Assembly: GCF_000474745.1 (NCBI RefSeq)
Contig: NZ_ASJR01000020.1
Coordinates: forward strand, 1-37,189
Length of the DNA stretch: 37,189 nucleotides
Source of the DNA: Chitinivibrio alkaliphilus ACht1
GTDB taxonomy: Bacteria > Fibrobacterota > Chitinivibrionia > Chitinivibrionales > Chitinivibrionaceae
Direction: 5' to 3'
Shown here: positions 14,551 to 25,742 of the stretch, piece after piece
Position numbering within the stretch: position 1 is the stretch's first letter
Layout: the number at the start of each line of letters is the position of its first letter
Translations under genes and position numbers: made by a program
The notes under the pieces: model-generated
What the model saw: only the letters and a program-made list of their open reading frames with translations
Databases searched by the model: none
Told to the model about the DNA's origin: nothing

Positions 14551-14594
14551 ATGTATATTTTTAGGGTATAGTTTTTTTTAGAAGGATGGGGACT

Positions 14595-15038
14595 ATGCGA
14601 TTATCCACGAAGACACGGTATAGCTTGCGGATATTAATTCAGCTTGCTACGGTGGGGCCCAACTCTCCCGCGTTGAAGGGAAAGGTTATGGCGCAAGAAC
14701 AGGAAATATCAGAGCCGTATCTGGAACAAATTATGATTCCCTTAAAAAGTTCCGGCTTGGTAAGCACAATTCGCGGGTGCAACGGTGGGTATGTGCTCAA
14801 TGCAGATCCGGAAAAAATCACAGTTCTTGATATAATTGAACTTTTTGATGGTCCCGTGCAATTTTCCAGTTGCAAGGAAGAAAATGATGGGAGTCCCTGT
14901 CGCCGTATCGCCAATTGCCCCAGTACGGCTGTGTGGGCACATTTATCAAAGGTGTTACGGGAAGAAGCGCAGAAAATAACAGTGAAAGAGTTAGCTGATA
15001 AGTGCACCACCTCTGAATTTCAGGAGTATGTCATATGA
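14595..15038 (+). CDS. Rrf2-family transcriptional regulator
   Basis: A 147-residue DNA-binding protein of the IscR/CymR/NsrR family. The N terminus is typical (MRLSTKTRYSLRILIQLA), followed by a winged helix (EISEPYLEQI, LVSTIRGCNGGYVL) and a dimerisation helix. Three cysteines in the pattern C-x8-C-x5-C (SCKEE to ANCPS, about residues 92-107) match the position of cluster-binding cysteines in IscR/NsrR-type proteins, although the first spacing is wider than the IscR pattern. It may therefore sense Fe-S or redox status rather than act as a cysteine-free CymR. Start at 14595 fits the family N terminus and follows AAGGA; an upstream ATG adds three residues. Its stop overlaps the cysK start by ATGA. 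Confidence 0.93.
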   Translation: MRLSTKTRYSLRILIQLATVGPNSPALKGKVMAQEQEISEPYLEQIMIPLKSSGLVSTIRGCNGGYVLNADPEKITVLDIIELFDGPVQFSSCKEENDGSPCRRIANCPSTAVWAHLSKVLREEAQKITVKELADKCTTSEFQEYVI

Positions 15039-15958
15039 ACATCCACGACTCAATTAGTGACTGTATCGGGAAAACGCCCTTGGTCCGTATGCGCTCTTTC
15101 CTCCCCGATGTTACGGCATCGCTCTTTGCAAAACTTGAGTTTTTCAACCCCACGGCGAGTATTAAAGATCGCACAGCGTACGGCATGATTCGTGCTGCTG
15201 AAGAGCGCGGTGAATTAACCCCGGGAGACACAATCGTTGAGCCAACAAGTGGTAACACGGGGGTTTCCCTTGCCATGATTGCTGCTGCACGGGGATATAA
15301 TCTTATTATTACCATGCCGGAATCTATGTCTATTGAGCGTCGACGTCTTATGGCATATCTTGGGGCAGAGGTCGTCCTTACTGATGCTGTTCGGGGTATG
15401 AAGGGAGCCATAGAAAAGGCAGAAGAGCTCTGTGCGGCGGAGAGCCGTTTTTATATGCCGCAGCAATTCAGAAATACGGATAATCCTCATATCCATTATA
15501 CAACAACAGCCCAAGAGATTTGGGATGATACAGACGGTGCTGTTGATGTTGTCGTCATGGGGGTTGGCACGGGAGGAACCATTACCGGTACGGCAGAGCG
15601 GTTAAAAGAGTTAAAACCCTCTCTTCGTGTTGTCGCGGTAGAGCCTGCTTCGTCGGCTGTGTTATCTGGAGAAACTCCCGGTAAACACGGTATTCAGGGA
15701 ATTGGTGCCGGGTTTGTTCCGGCCATTCTCAAGGCCGATCTTATTGATAGTATTGTGAAAGTGACCGATGCTCAGGCCCTTACGGCAGCACGAAAATGTG
15801 CCTCCACTGAGGGTGTTATTGCCGGTATTAGCTCCGGTGCTGCCTTATTTGGTGCTTCTCAAATTGCCAAAAAGAGCGAGAACCGGGGCAAAAACATTGT
15901 GGTCGTACTTCCTGATACGGGGGAGCGATACCTTTCCACAGACCTTTTTGAGCGGTAG
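15035..15958 (+). CDS. cysK: Cysteine synthase (O-acetylserine sulfhydrylase)
   Basis: Makes cysteine from O-acetylserine and sulfide with PLP. The 307-residue product is of normal length. The PLP lysine is Lys44 in NPTASIKDRTA; the substrate loop is EPTSGNTGVSLA; the phosphate-binding glycine loop is GVGTGGTITGTAE; the C-terminal signature SGAALFGA and PDTGERYLST is intact. No serine acetyltransferase is nearby. It is translationally coupled to the Rrf2 regulator and leads directly into a cysteine desulfurase, so the operon both makes cysteine and takes its sulfur. Confidence 0.96.
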   Translation: MNIHDSISDCIGKTPLVRMRSFLPDVTASLFAKLEFFNPTASIKDRTAYGMIRAAEERGELTPGDTIVEPTSGNTGVSLAMIAAARGYNLIITMPESMSIERRRLMAYLGAEVVLTDAVRGMKGAIEKAEELCAAESRFYMPQQFRNTDNPHIHYTTTAQEIWDDTDGAVDVVVMGVGTGGTITGTAERLKELKPSLRVVAVEPASSAVLSGETPGKHGIQGIGAGFVPAILKADLIDSIVKVTDAQALTAARKCASTEGVIAGISSGAALFGASQIAKKSENRGKNIVVVLPDTGERYLSTDLFER

Positions 15959-15981
15959 ATGCTACCGCAAAGGAGACCTTG

Positions 15982-17115
15982 GTGACTTCCTCTGTAATTT
16001 ATCTCGACAGTAATGCCACCACCCCGGTGAAATCTGCTGTTCTTGATGAGATGCTCCTTGTCTTTCAAAATTGCTTCGGAAATCCTTCCGCGCTCTACTC
16101 CTATGGGCAGGAGGCGGCGCAGCGCCTTGCCCATGCCCGCAGGCGTGTGGCGGGGAGTATCGGTGCAGAGATGGATGAGATTGTTTTTACCTCCGGGGGG
16201 ACTGAGTCAAACACCACGGCTCTCTTCGGTCTTTTGGAGCGGTTTCCCCATAAAAAACACATTGTCACCACTGCCGTGGAGCACAGCTCTGTCTATGAGG
16301 CTTGCTGTGTTCTTGAAAAACGCGGCTACGAGGTGACCCGCCTTGGAACCGACTCTGCGGGATTTATCTCTCCGGAAGAGTTTGCACGGGCTTTGCGTGA
16401 AGACACCCTTCTTGCTTCTGTGCTCTATGCCGGCAATGAAACCGGGGCTATTCAGCCCGTGGGTGAATTAGCACGAATGGCCGGTAAGAAGGGGGTCTTT
16501 TTTCATACCGATGCCGTACAGGCCATGGGAAAAATACCCCTTGATGTAAATGATCTTTCCGTGGATCTGCTCTCCCTGTCGGGCCATAAATTCGGTGGTC
16601 CCAAGGGGGCCGGAGCTCTTTTTGTCCGCCGGGGGATTCCCCTTACCCCTCTTTTGTACGGAGGTGGCCAGGAAAATAAGCGCCGCTCCGGTACGGAGAA
16701 TGTTCCCGCCATGGTTGGTTTGGGGGCAGCCTGTGAGCTTGCGCAGGAAAATCTTGGGGAAAATCATAAAAAACTGCAGGAGTTGAAACGCTTTTTCTGC
16801 GAAGCCCTGTCTTCTGCCATCTCCTCCGTGTGCTTTTACAGCGGGCAGGATGAAAGGTATCTCCCCAATACCGTTTATGCCGGTTTTCCCGGTGAGGATC
16901 AGGAGAGTCTGGCCATGGGGCTTGATCTGCAGGGAGTTTGTGTGGCCACGGGGTCTGCCTGCGGAAGTTCACGTCGCGAGGCATCCCGTGTGCTAAAAGC
17001 CATGGGAGTGTCCGGGGCAGAACTTTTCTCCGCCCTGCGTTTCTCCTTTGATACGGGAGTAACAAAAAAGGAGCTCCAGGAGACCGTCCGCGTCCTGGCA
17101 GATATTATTTTATAG
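15982..17115 (+). CDS. Cysteine desulfurase (NifS/IscS type)
   Basis: PLP enzyme that removes sulfur from cysteine as an enzyme persulfide and releases alanine. The 377-residue product has LDSNATTP at the N terminus, His101 (VEHSSV), PLP Lys203 (SGHKFGGPKG), the substrate Arg region (RRSGTEN) and catalytic Cys327 on the mobile loop (TGSACGSSRREAS), which defines group I desulfurases. The GTG start at 15982 has AAAGGAG six bases upstream; a TTG one codon earlier is less well placed. No IscU, SufU or other scaffold is in the window. Placement before nadA matches the nifS-nadA neighbourhood of other bacteria, where the desulfurase feeds the NadA cluster. Confidence 0.95.
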   Translation: MTSSVIYLDSNATTPVKSAVLDEMLLVFQNCFGNPSALYSYGQEAAQRLAHARRRVAGSIGAEMDEIVFTSGGTESNTTALFGLLERFPHKKHIVTTAVEHSSVYEACCVLEKRGYEVTRLGTDSAGFISPEEFARALREDTLLASVLYAGNETGAIQPVGELARMAGKKGVFFHTDAVQAMGKIPLDVNDLSVDLLSLSGHKFGGPKGAGALFVRRGIPLTPLLYGGGQENKRRSGTENVPAMVGLGAACELAQENLGENHKKLQELKRFFCEALSSAISSVCFYSGQDERYLPNTVYAGFPGEDQESLAMGLDLQGVCVATGSACGSSRREASRVLKAMGVSGAELFSALRFSFDTGVTKKELQETVRVLADIIL

Positions 17116-17140
17116 TTGAAACTATATTCATGAGGTAAAC

Positions 17141-18070
17141 ATGGCCGTTGATTATGTGGATACGCTTATTGCGGATATCCGACGATTGAAAAAAGAAAAA
17201 AATGCGATTATATTGGCACATAACTATGTCCTTGGTGATGTGCAGGATGTAGCGGATTTTGTGGGTGATTCCCTGGAATTGAGCAAAAAGGCCCGGCAGG
17301 TGGATGAAGAGGTGATTGTCTTTTGCGGAGTCTCCTTTATGGCGGAGACGGCAAAGATTCTTTCCCCGGAAAAAAAAGTGATTCATCCCGTGACTGCGGC
17401 GGGCTGTCCCATGGCCGATATGGCCGACGCTCCCGCCCTGCGCCGCTTCAAGCAAGACCATCCCGATGCCGTGACAGTCTGTTATGTAAACAGCTCAGCC
17501 AGCCTGAAGGCGGAGGTTGATATCTGCTGTACCTCTTCCAATGCAGAAGAAATCATAGGGTTGATCCCTGAAGATCGGCGGATTATCTTTCTGCCCGATA
17601 AAAATCTTGGCGCCAATGTGGCGCGCGCCACGGGGCGGCAGATGATCCTTTGGGAAGGGTTTTGTCCCACCCACATGCGCCTGCGTCCCGCCATGCTTGA
17701 GCGCAAAAAAGAGGAATTTCCCCATGCCGTGGTTATTGCTCATCCGGAATGCCGTCCTGAAGTGCTGGATCTGGCAGATTACTCCCTCAGTACGGGGGGG
17801 ATGCTCTCCTTTGCCCGCAGCACAGAGGCAAAGCAACTCATTGTGGCAACAGAACTGGGTATTATCCACCGCCTCCAGAAGGAAAATCCGGACAAACAGT
17901 TTATTCCCATATCTGAACAGGCGGTCTGTATGACCATGAAGATGATCGAGCTTGAGGATGTAAAGCGGTCCCTTGAAACCCTTACACCGAAGGTAGAGCT
18001 TGAGCCGGATATTATCACCCAGGCAAAGGCTCCCATTGTACGTATGATTGAACAGCGACTGGATATATAA
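17141..18070 (+). CDS. nadA: Quinolinate synthase A
   Basis: Condenses iminoaspartate with dihydroxyacetone phosphate to quinolinate for NAD synthesis, using an oxygen-sensitive [4Fe-4S] cluster. The 309-residue product has the three-fold repeat core with HNYVLGDVQDVADFVGDS, CGVSFMAETAKIL, and the three cluster cysteines Cys89 (AAGCPMADM), Cys175 (WEGFCPTHM) and Cys263. The last lies in CMTMK, where most relatives have CPNMK. No nadB (aspartate oxidase) or nadC is in the window; the iminoaspartate source may be encoded elsewhere, or may be an aspartate dehydrogenase suited to anaerobic life. The stop shares its last base with the bioB ATG. Confidence 0.96.
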   Translation: MAVDYVDTLIADIRRLKKEKNAIILAHNYVLGDVQDVADFVGDSLELSKKARQVDEEVIVFCGVSFMAETAKILSPEKKVIHPVTAAGCPMADMADAPALRRFKQDHPDAVTVCYVNSSASLKAEVDICCTSSNAEEIIGLIPEDRRIIFLPDKNLGANVARATGRQMILWEGFCPTHMRLRPAMLERKKEEFPHAVVIAHPECRPEVLDLADYSLSTGGMLSFARSTEAKQLIVATELGIIHRLQKENPDKQFIPISEQAVCMTMKMIELEDVKRSLETLTPKVELEPDIITQAKAPIVRMIEQRLDI

Positions 18071-19029
18071 TGACACAGGGAATCAGTGTAGCAGAGGCAC
18101 GGGAATATATGCAGCTGCCCCATGGGCAGGTTTTTGACCTGATCTCGCAGGCCCGCCGGGTGCGTGAGGAGTATTTGGGGTGTGAGGTATCCCTGTGCTC
18201 CATAGTAAATGCCAAGAGCGGCAACTGCCGGGAAGACTGCTCCTTTTGTCCTCAGTCGGTACATGCAGAGGCATCGGTGGAAACCTACCCCCTCATGGAT
18301 AAAAAGGATATTCTCGCTGCTGCCAAGCGTGCAGAGCTTCAAAATGCTCATAACATGGGTATTGTCACCTCGGGAAGAAAAATCTCCCCCCGTGAAATGG
18401 AGGATGTCCAGCGGGCCGTGGAGATGGTTGGCAAAGAGACATCCCTTGGAGCCTGTGCGTCCCTGGGGCTGGTGGATACCTTCTTTATGGAGGAATTGAA
18501 AGCGGCAGGTTTGCAGGCCATACACCACAATCTTGAAAGCTCACGCAGCTTCTATGAACAAATCTGTACCACCCGTACATACGATGAGAATCTTCGGGTA
18601 TTGCACCATGCAAAAGATGCGGGGTTGCGGGTGTGTTCCGGTGGCCTTTTTGGTCTGGGAGAAAGCAATGATCAGCGGGTGGAGCTCTTTGATGAGTTGC
18701 GCCGGGTGGAAGTGGATTCAGTCCCCATTAATTTCCTTCATCCCCGGGAGGGAACCCGGGCTGCCTCCTCTGCAAAAAAAATTACCCCCCTTGCGGGATT
18801 AAAAATTATTGCCGTGGCACGGCTCATGATGCCCCGCACCCAGATTCGCATTGCCGGAGGACGGGAGTATACCCTGCGGGATATGCAGTCCTGGATTTTT
18901 GCAGCCGGTGCAAACGCCCTCATGGTGGGAAATTATCTTACCACGGCAGGCAGAAGTATCGAAGATGACCTGCAGATGATTGCTGATGCGGGAATGATTG
19001 TTTCCGAAACGGGTGGATGCGGTGCCTGA
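18070..19029 (+). CDS. bioB: Biotin synthase with variant auxiliary-cluster ligands
   Basis: Radical SAM enzyme that inserts sulfur into dethiobiotin. The 319-residue product carries the CX3CX2C motif (Cys53, Cys57, Cys60; GNCREDCSFC), SGGLFGLGES, HHNLESS and TTRTY as in other BioB proteins. Of the four ligands of the sulfur-donating [2Fe-2S] cluster in E. coli (Cys97, Cys128, Cys188, Arg260), the second, third and fourth have clear equivalents (GACASLG, RVCSGG, QIRIAGGRE). The first aligns with Gly97 in MGIVTSGR. An extra cysteine lies at residue 43 (SLCSIV). This suggests an alternative auxiliary cluster. No other biotin gene is in the window. It overlaps nadA by one base and mnmA by eight. 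Confidence 0.95.
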   Translation: MTQGISVAEAREYMQLPHGQVFDLISQARRVREEYLGCEVSLCSIVNAKSGNCREDCSFCPQSVHAEASVETYPLMDKKDILAAAKRAELQNAHNMGIVTSGRKISPREMEDVQRAVEMVGKETSLGACASLGLVDTFFMEELKAAGLQAIHHNLESSRSFYEQICTTRTYDENLRVLHHAKDAGLRVCSGGLFGLGESNDQRVELFDELRRVEVDSVPINFLHPREGTRAASSAKKITPLAGLKIIAVARLMMPRTQIRIAGGREYTLRDMQSWIFAAGANALMVGNYLTTAGRSIEDDLQMIADAGMIVSETGGCGA

Positions 19030-20101
19030 AAAACGCCTTGTTGCCGCCATGAGCGGCGGGGTGGATTCCTCCGTTGCGGCAGCCCTCTATGCAGAGCAGG
19101 GCTATGAGGTAATTGGTATCACCCTCAAAATGAAAAATTGTGATAACAGTCGTGAAAAAACAAAGGCGTGCTGTGGCCTTGATGACAATATTCATGCCCG
19201 CCTTGCGGCGGAGAAGCTTGGCATAAAACACTATTTCCTTGATCTTCGTCATATTTTTGAGGAATCCGTATTGCGGTACGCCTGGGAGGAGTATTCCCGG
19301 GGGCATACCCCAAATCCCTGCGTAATGTGCAATGAGCATCTCAAATTCGGCGCTTTGATAGATTATGCGGATAAACTCAATGCGGATGGAGTTATTACGG
19401 GACATTATGCCCGAATTACTACTGATGAATCGGGAAGCCCCGCCCTGTTAAACGGTGTTGATGACACGAAAAATCAGACCTATTTTCTTGCAACTCTTAC
19501 CCGAAAACAGCTGGAGAAATCCTGCATGCCCCTGGGGGAGTATACCAAGGATATGGTGCGTGAGATGGCACGGAAGCGGGGGCTGGAAAATGCGGAAAAA
19601 ACAGAGAGTCAGGATGCCTGTTTTGGCTATCGGGGGGAAGCCTTTGCCGAAACCCTGGGGCGATATTTTGATGCTTCCTTTCACGGGGGTGAGATGGTGG
19701 ATGAAACGGGGCGGTTTCTCAGGCATCACGAGGGGATTCAACGCTATACTATTGGACAGCGCAAAGGCCTTGGAGTGGCCCTGGGAAAGCCCGCCTATGT
19801 CTCTTCCATTGATCCCGCCACGGGGCGGATTCGTGTTACCACACGGCAGGACGATCTCCTCTCACCGGCCCTGCAGGCAGAGTCTATGAACTGGCTGGTA
19901 GATATGCCCCATGAATTTTCCTGTTATGCACAGATCAGATACAATCAAACCCCCGTACCGGTGCAGGTGGTACGCAGGGGTGATAACGGGGTACGCGTTG
20001 TTTTTGAAGAGCCCGTCCGTGCTGCAACGGCGGGGCAACTCCTTGCATTGTACGAAAAGGATCGTCTCCTTGGGGGAGGATGGATTTGCCATGTTGAATA
20101 A
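19022..20101 (+). CDS. mnmA: tRNA-specific 2-thiouridylase MnmA
   Basis: Adenylates and thiolates U34 of certain tRNAs using sulfur relayed from a cysteine desulfurase. About 359 residues. The PP-loop is MSGGVDSSVAA at 10-20; the tRNA/ATP motifs TGHYAR and TIGQRKGLG are present. Cysteines are arranged as CxxC (Cys100, Cys103; TPNPCVMCN) plus Cys200 (ESQDACF), where E. coli has Asp-x-x-Cys and Cys. Three cysteines at these places resemble thiolases that hold a [4Fe-4S] cluster. I chose the GTG at 19022, which overlaps the end of bioB by eight bases and gives the family-typical short N terminus; the open frame extends further into bioB. Confidence 0.94.
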   Translation: MPEKRLVAAMSGGVDSSVAAALYAEQGYEVIGITLKMKNCDNSREKTKACCGLDDNIHARLAAEKLGIKHYFLDLRHIFEESVLRYAWEEYSRGHTPNPCVMCNEHLKFGALIDYADKLNADGVITGHYARITTDESGSPALLNGVDDTKNQTYFLATLTRKQLEKSCMPLGEYTKDMVREMARKRGLENAEKTESQDACFGYRGEAFAETLGRYFDASFHGGEMVDETGRFLRHHEGIQRYTIGQRKGLGVALGKPAYVSSIDPATGRIRVTTRQDDLLSPALQAESMNWLVDMPHEFSCYAQIRYNQTPVPVQVVRRGDNGVRVVFEEPVRAATAGQLLALYEKDRLLGGGWICHVE

Positions 20102-21209
20102 GAATGCCGCCCTCTTTGAAAAAATAGATCGGGGAGAGGAACTTACCCTCGCAGATCTTACGACATTGTTACATATGCAGGAGCCGGAAGAGCTGCATCG
20201 TCTTTTTTCCGCCGCCTACGAAGTAAAAAAGCGACACGTGGGAACAACTGTCTACTACCGGGGTATTATTGAAGCGGGAAATATCTGTGTAAAGGATTGC
20301 TACTACTGCGGGATCCGCCGATCAAACAGTGGGGTGGAGCGGTTTTTAATGGATCCTGAGGAGATTGTTCGTGAGGCCCTGTGGTGTTATGAAAATCACT
20401 ACGGTTCCCTGGTGATCCAAAGCGGCGAACGGCAGGATGGAGCCTTTACCGACATGATTACCGGGGTGATTCGGCGCATTCGTGCCGCTACGGAGGGAAA
20501 ACTGGGTATCACCCTCTCACTGGGAGAACAATCACGCCGGGTGTATGATGAGTGGTTTCAGGCGGGGGCCCATCGCTATCTTCTCCGTATTGAGACCTCA
20601 AATCCTGCGCTGTATACAGAACTTCACCCCGGGGATCATAGTTTTTCCACCCGCCTCGCGGCACTTCGTTTTCTGCAGGAGGCAGGCTATCAGGTGGGGA
20701 CAGGGGTGATGATGGGTCTGCCGGGACAAACCATGGAAGATCTTGCCCGCGATATATTGTTTTTACGTGATTTTGATATTGATATGGTGGGAATGGGTCC
20801 CTATATTCCCCATAAGGATACCCCTCTCGGGGCAGAATGCACTGGTCTCAGGGAGGATGAAAAAAAGGAACTTCTTCTCCTTGCAAAGAAGATGATTGCC
20901 CTGGTGCGCATTGTTTTAAATGATGTGAATATTGCCGCTACTACAGCCCTGCAGGCCCTGAAACACGATGGTCGAGAGGAAGGGCTTTTGGCAGGTGCCA
21001 ATATTATTATGCCCAATGTTACCAAAACAGACTATCGCCCCCACTATCAGCTTTATGAAAATAAACCCTGTATTGATGAAAATTCCACCATGTGCAGGGG
21101 CTGTCTGGAGGGTCGTATCGGCCGTATTGGTGAGACCATCGGCTATGATGAGTGGGGTGATTCCCCCCATTTTTTCCGTCGAAGCGGCCGTGTTTCCACA
21201 CATACATGA
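20091..21209 (+). CDS. hydE: [FeFe]-hydrogenase maturation radical SAM enzyme HydE
   Basis: HydE works with HydG and HydF to assemble the diiron subcluster of [FeFe] hydrogenase. The 372-residue product has the radical SAM motif Cys66-x3-Cys70-x2-Cys73 (NICVKDCYYCGIRR) and HydE-specific segments: RGIIEAGN, VIQSGERQD, TLSLGEQ, YLLRIETSNP, GLPGQT and MVGMGPYIPHKDTPLG. The optional second cluster motif C-x7-C-x2-C is also intact (KPCIDENSTMCRGC). HydF, HydG and hydrogenase subunits are not in the window. ATG at 20091 overlaps mnmA by 11 bases and follows a GGGGGAGG stretch at slightly long distance. PylB and BioB relatives were considered; the motifs fit HydE clearly better. Confidence 0.93.
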   Translation: MLNKNAALFEKIDRGEELTLADLTTLLHMQEPEELHRLFSAAYEVKKRHVGTTVYYRGIIEAGNICVKDCYYCGIRRSNSGVERFLMDPEEIVREALWCYENHYGSLVIQSGERQDGAFTDMITGVIRRIRAATEGKLGITLSLGEQSRRVYDEWFQAGAHRYLLRIETSNPALYTELHPGDHSFSTRLAALRFLQEAGYQVGTGVMMGLPGQTMEDLARDILFLRDFDIDMVGMGPYIPHKDTPLGAECTGLREDEKKELLLLAKKMIALVRIVLNDVNIAATTALQALKHDGREEGLLAGANIIMPNVTKTDYRPHYQLYENKPCIDENSTMCRGCLEGRIGRIGETIGYDEWGDSPHFFRRSGRVSTHT

Positions 21210-24461: not shown

Positions 24462-25742
24462 ATGGCGTATCATGCAGAAACAGTGGCAGTTCACGGGGGA
24501 CACACCCCTGACGAGACAACCCTAAGCCGGGGAGTTCCCGTCTATCGTACCAGTTCCTATGTATTTAAAAGCACGGAACATGCGGCAAATCTTTTTGGAT
24601 TGAAGGAGCTGGGAAATATTTACAGCCGCCTTACTAATCCCACCACGGAAATTTTGGAAAATCGCATCACTGAACTCGAGGGCGGTGCTGCAACGGTTGC
24701 CCTGGCGTCGGGAACCTCCGCAATTTTCAGTACTATCGTAACCATTGCTCGGGCTGGGGATCATCTCGTTTCGGCCAATAATCTCTATGGCGGAACCTAT
24801 ACGCAGTTTGATTCAATTTTGCCCGACCTTGGTATTACCACGACCTTTGTAGACCCAACAAATCCTCAAAATTTTGCAGCGGCGATTCAGGAAAAAACGC
24901 GGGCGATCTACATTGAAGCCATTGGAAACCCTGCCCTGGAAGTAACGGATATTGAAGCAGTGGCTTCCATTGCCCATGAGGCGGGGCTTCCCCTTATTGT
25001 AGATGCAACCTTTACAACACCGGCTTTGCTGCGAGCCATCGATCATGGAGCAGACATTGTTATCAACTCGCTCACCAAGTGGATTGGTGGACATGGAACC
25101 GGTCTGGGAGGAAGTATTACCGACGCCGGACGGTTTAACTGGGCCGGGGGAAGACACCCCTTGTTTACAGAGCCTGACTCAAATTATCACGGTTTACGGT
25201 GGGCCCATGATCTTCCTGAACCCTTGGCTCCCATCGCCTTTGCTCTCCGGGTGCGCACTGTGCCCCTGCGTAATCTCGGTGGTTCTATTAGCCCGGACAA
25301 CTCATGGCTGTTTCTCCAAGGGCTTGAAACGCTTCATTTACGTATGAAGAAACATGTGGAAAACACGCAGGCCGTGGCAGAATATCTGGAAGGGCATCCG
25401 GCCGTGGCGTGGGTAAAGTATCCCGGACTTGCGTCACATCCCACCCATGAAACAGCAAAGCGGTATTTAAAAAACGGCTTTGGCGGGGTGGTAGTATTTG
25501 GCCTGAAGAGTGGATACGACGGGGCAGTCCGGCTGATTGACTCAATCTCTCTTTTCTCCCATCTTGCCAATGTGGGAGATGCAAAGAGCTTAATTCTGCA
25601 CCCTTCGTCAACGTCACATAGTCAGCTTTCAGAGGAGCAGCTCACCGATGCGGGTATTACTCCCGACTTAATCCGTCTCTCCATTGGGATAGAACATGTG
25701 GATGATATTATTGGTGCCTTGGCAGAGGTACTTGATTCCTAA
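24462..25742 (+). CDS. O-acetylhomoserine sulfhydrylase (MetY family)
   Basis: PLP enzyme of the Cys/Met metabolism family, 426 residues, that makes homocysteine from O-acetylhomoserine and sulfide. Motifs: [10 protein letters not shown] at the N terminus, [16 protein letters not shown], the PLP lysine in [13 protein letters not shown], and [10 protein letters not shown] with SIGIEHVDD at the C terminus. The length of 426 and the H-G-T-G insert fit MetY rather than the shorter cystathionine gamma-synthase. A clear AAGGAG precedes the ATG. Not operonic with the Rrf2/cysK group 2 kb upstream, but it is the second sulfide-fixing enzyme in the window. Confidence 0.94.

Follow-up and report, generated by a model that had tools for sequence, protein, structure and literature searches.

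A predicted Type II biotin synthase with Cys43 and Gly97 in Chitinivibrio alkaliphilus ACht1

The auxiliary cluster of the Type I biotin synthase (BioB) of E. coli is a [2Fe-2S] cluster (PMC11099021), and the Type I ligand set comprises Cys97, Cys128, Cys188, and Arg260. What kind of biotin synthase, then, is a BioB that possesses Gly at position 97 and an extra cysteine at position 43? Such a protein is encoded in the window, the whole stretch of 37,189 nucleotides from Chitinivibrio alkaliphilus ACht1 analysed here. Biotin synthases of anaerobes utilize a [4Fe-5S] cluster instead of the [2Fe-2S] cluster (PMC11138216, PMC11099021) and are called type II (PMC11099021). The preliminary description had assigned the protein to a variant with an altered auxiliary cluster known in anaerobes, and the residue pattern and clade membership described below agree with it: the product is very probably a Type II biotin synthase, predicted from its sequence to convert dethiobiotin to biotin.

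A single open frame (18070–19029, forward strand) encodes, by translation, a full-length BioB of 319 residues; the features of the gene and its neighbours are collected in Table 1. The protein contains nine cysteines (38, 43, 53, 57, 60, 129, 166, 189, and 317). Cys43, the telling residue of Type II, is located ten residues ahead of the radical-SAM motif CxxxCxxC, and Gly97 is situated opposite E. coli Cys97 in two MAFFT alignments and in the HMMER alignments to 1r30, 8vdw, and 8vcw, none of which places another cysteine at this position. Both residues had been noticed by eye in the preliminary description, as had the retention of the Cys128, Cys188, and Arg260 equivalents, which are found here as Cys129, Cys189, and Arg260 in the numbering of the query. 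The query thus departs from the Type I ligand set by Gly at 97 and carries the Type II pattern (Cys43 with a residue other than Cys at 97), derived here from the sequences of 8vdw and 8vcw. Arg260, which serves as a ligand in Type I, is retained in the query and in most of the Type II clade. All 36 sequences lacking Cys97 contain Cys166, as do some Type I sequences, and Cys38 exhibits no conservation among the compared sequences.

Table 1. Features of bioB and the surrounding gene cluster (window coordinates).
Feature	Coordinates	Strand	Evidence
Rrf2-family regulator heading the gene cluster	14586..15038	+	TIGR00738 111 bits
cysK, cysteine synthase	15035..15958	+	TIGR01139 432 bits
NifS-like cysteine desulfurase, directly upstream of nadA	15979..17115	+	TIGR03402 433 bits, below its 531-bit cutoff
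nadA, quinolinate synthase; one base in common with bioB start	17141..18070	+	TIGR00550 344 bits
bioB, predicted Type II biotin synthase, 319 aa	18070..19029	+	TIGR00433 370 bits; best PDB matches 8vdw, 8vcw; AlphaFold2 model pLDDT 93.3
Cys43 codon (tgc), predicted auxiliary-cluster ligand; Ser43 in E. coli	18196..18198	+	alignment columns
Cys53-x3-Cys57-x2-Cys60, radical-SAM cluster motif CxxxCxxC	18226..18249	+	invariant in all compared sequences
Gly97 codon (ggt), E. coli Cys97 position	18358..18360	+	alignments
Cys129 codon (tgt), E. coli Cys128 equivalent	18454..18456	+	alignments
Cys189 codon (tgt), E. coli Cys188 equivalent	18634..18636	+	alignments
Arg260 codon (cgc), E. coli Arg260 equivalent	18847..18849	+	alignments
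mnmA, tRNA 2-thiouridine synthase, CxxC-C type; overlaps bioB end	19022..20101	+	TIGR00420 319 bits; PNPCVMC, DACF motifs
hydE-like radical SAM protein	20091..21209	+	TIGR03956 335 bits, cutoff 255

Among the sequences of the PDB, HMMER ranks 8vdw first for the query, followed by 8vcw and 1r30, and the same order (8vdw of V. parvula, 8vcw of B. obeum, E. coli 1r30) is returned by Foldseek for an AlphaFold2 model made from 39 aligned sequences (pTM 0.92). The Veillonella parvula enzyme shares with the query Cys43, a residue other than Cys at 97, the Cys128 and Cys188 equivalents, and Arg260, and superimposes on the model with a TM of 0.94 and an rmsd of 1.3 Å at 41% identity. The Blautia obeum enzyme displays the same five-position pattern (TM 0.87, 34% identity). 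Position 97 is occupied by Ser in both solved structures, whereas Gly is found in the query. Compared with these, the E. coli enzyme has in common with the query the fold (TM 0.90, 33% identity), the radical-SAM motif, Cys128, Cys188, and Arg260, but possesses Cys97 and Ser43 in place of Gly97 and Cys43. 8vdw and 8vcw are reportedly the structures from Lachowicz et al., JACS 2024 (doi 10.1021/jacs.3c05481), in keeping with their release on 2024-01-24; that work is cited by both later papers (PMC11138216, PMC11099021) for the [4Fe-5S] auxiliary cluster of anaerobe BioB. In the E. coli enzyme, Ser43 is listed with the residues that surround the [2Fe-2S] cluster (PMC11099021), and Cys43 of the query is accordingly a plausible cluster ligand. 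The nearest relatives of the query are the BioB proteins of Lentisphaerota and Kiritimatiellota (L003–L006; 53–56% identity), which share Cys43 and Gly97 and are closer to it than the BioB proteins of its own family (about 40%).

Across 50 BioB sequences covering position 43, Cys97 is absent from 36, with Gly, Ser, or Ala in its place, and every one of the 36 carries Cys43. Cys97 is kept in the remaining 14; half of these lack Cys43 and possess Ser, Asn, Tyr, or Gly there, and the other seven, six from Campylobacterota and one from a genome of the same family as the query (L015), contain both cysteines. Since Cys43 occurs in all 36 sequences lacking Cys97 but in only half of the 14 others, the pairing of Cys43 with a residue other than Cys at 97 is, as far as sequences can tell, not due to chance. 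The 36 sequences, including the query, 8vdw, and 8vcw, form one clade with a support of 94/90, just below the level that the program marks with a star; a smaller split in the tree is not firmly resolved. The state at position 97 changes once on this tree, and a covariation test between positions 43 and 97 contains only two independent pairs and has no power; therefore, the argument rests on clade membership and not on repeated coevolution. Within the 90%-conserved columns of the clade, residue 257 is the sole departure of the query.

Some of the compared sequences depart from both patterns. The six Campylobacterota proteins (L009–L014) possess both Cys43 and Cys97, but the Cys188 position holds Ile or Thr and the Arg260 position Met. 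Their Cys128 can be placed only to within two residues in the alignment (LIACN), and these proteins may have a third set of auxiliary ligands. L015, the second BioB of its genome (G001), contains the Cys43, Cys97, Cys128, Cys188, and Arg260 equivalents all together, and a Type II copy (L020) exists in the same genome. In L018 (G004) and L019 (G003), also from genomes of the same family, the Cys128 position is occupied by Ser and the Arg260 position by Lys, and residues 189–190 form a Cys-Cys pair.

The retained Cys128, Cys188, and Arg260 equivalents, together with the desulfurase in the same gene cluster, would also suit a Type I-like BioB, in which Cys43 replaces Cys97 around a [2Fe-2S] cluster consumed in every catalytic cycle and then reassembled with sulfur that the nearby desulfurase provides. 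We regard this as highly unlikely, because the query groups in one clade with 8vdw and 8vcw, and at columns 45, 100, 131, and 156, which are fixed in the Type II clade, it is distinct from the Type I sequences. Furthermore, the desulfurase adjoins nadA, and a NifS–NifU pair exists elsewhere in the genome: the single NifU-like scaffold is located beside a second NifS-like gene on another contig (C9), and no SUF match was found in the genome. The preliminary description had proposed that the desulfurase could rebuild a sacrificed BioB cluster. A role dedicated to bioB repair is unsupported, as nadA immediately follows this desulfurase gene and the genome encodes another NifS; as for the sacrifice, the published Type II model proposes the ligated extra sulfide on the [4Fe-5S] cluster as the source of the inserted sulfur (PMC11138216).

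Still less credible is an identity outside the biotin synthases, either as an inactive paralogue or as a different radical SAM enzyme resembling BioB, such as PylB or HydE; the strong matches of the model to the HydE and PylB folds and the hydE-like gene two genes downstream could be invoked in its favour. Against it, the TIGR00433 score of the product (370.3 bits) lies far above the curated cutoff of 225, whereas PylB, the next distinct family, reaches only 81 of 348; no second gene of the genome exceeds the BioB cutoff, and the catalytic cysteines are intact. In addition, bioD and bioA are located together on one contig (C1) and bioF and bioC together on another (C3), all away from bioB, thereby indirectly supporting the catalytic and pathway assignment.

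For the predicted Type II enzyme, the literature suggests the following mechanism. Cys53, Cys57, and Cys60 would hold the SAM-cleaving [4Fe-4S] cluster, and the 5'-deoxyadenosyl radical would take hydrogen from dethiobiotin. Cys43, Cys129, and Cys189 would hold a second, four-iron cluster, the type of which is taken from published work and is not readable from sequence. The fourth iron of this auxiliary cluster would carry the extra sulfide, giving [4Fe-5S], and the sulfide would enter the substrate in two radical steps; afterwards, the cluster could be recharged with sulfide instead of being rebuilt.

The gene cluster runs in the order Rrf2 regulator, cysK, NifS-like desulfurase, nadA, bioB, mnmA, and hydE-like, and the ends of nadA and bioB and of bioB and mnmA overlap (the likeliest start codon of mnmA is the GTG at 19022), which suggests that nadA, bioB, and mnmA are jointly expressed. 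The order nifS–nadA–bioB is also found in L003 (Lentisphaerae), and bioB–mnmA in L004 (Victivallaceae). No Rfam match bearing on regulation of the cluster was found, and promoter-like sites are no commoner there than in shuffles. In the MnmA of the window, Cys stands in place of E. coli Asp99 (PNPCVMC), and the protein belongs to the CxxC-C type, with a motif common to the MnmA of L004 and L077; this type is described as iron-sulfur dependent (PMC8584467). For both Type II BioB and CxxC-C MnmA, a four-iron cluster carrying a sulfide is the presumed cofactor. That cysK, nifS, nadA, bioB, and mnmA form a sulfide-supply unit under the Rrf2 regulator, with one sulfur source recharging both enzymes, is a speculative reading that we consider unlikely. 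A few kilobases downstream of the cluster, a PLP-dependent enzyme of Cys/Met metabolism is encoded (24462–25742; PF01053, 445 bits).

The GC content of window positions 15001–20000 is about 0.52, compared with 0.44–0.46 upstream, and the bioB and mnmA products are closer to Lentisphaerota proteins (54–56%) than to those of same-family genomes (about 40%); together these hint at lateral transfer of the region. The nadA product is only slightly closer to Lentisphaerota (60%, against 55% for same-family genomes).

In the class to which C. alkaliphilus ACht1 belongs, major parts of the electron-transport chain are missing, and its members are reported to be obligate anaerobes (PMC4704652); the genome appears to fit this. 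The query is a standard Type II example: its oddity is real yet already explained by a known form, described in 2024, and what is new here is that Type II gains one further anaerobic lineage. In most compared sequences the two BioB types are told apart cleanly by positions 43 and 97, with a few informative exceptions, and the location of bioB beside a CxxC-C mnmA gives a modest clue to the sulfide recharging of such clusters.
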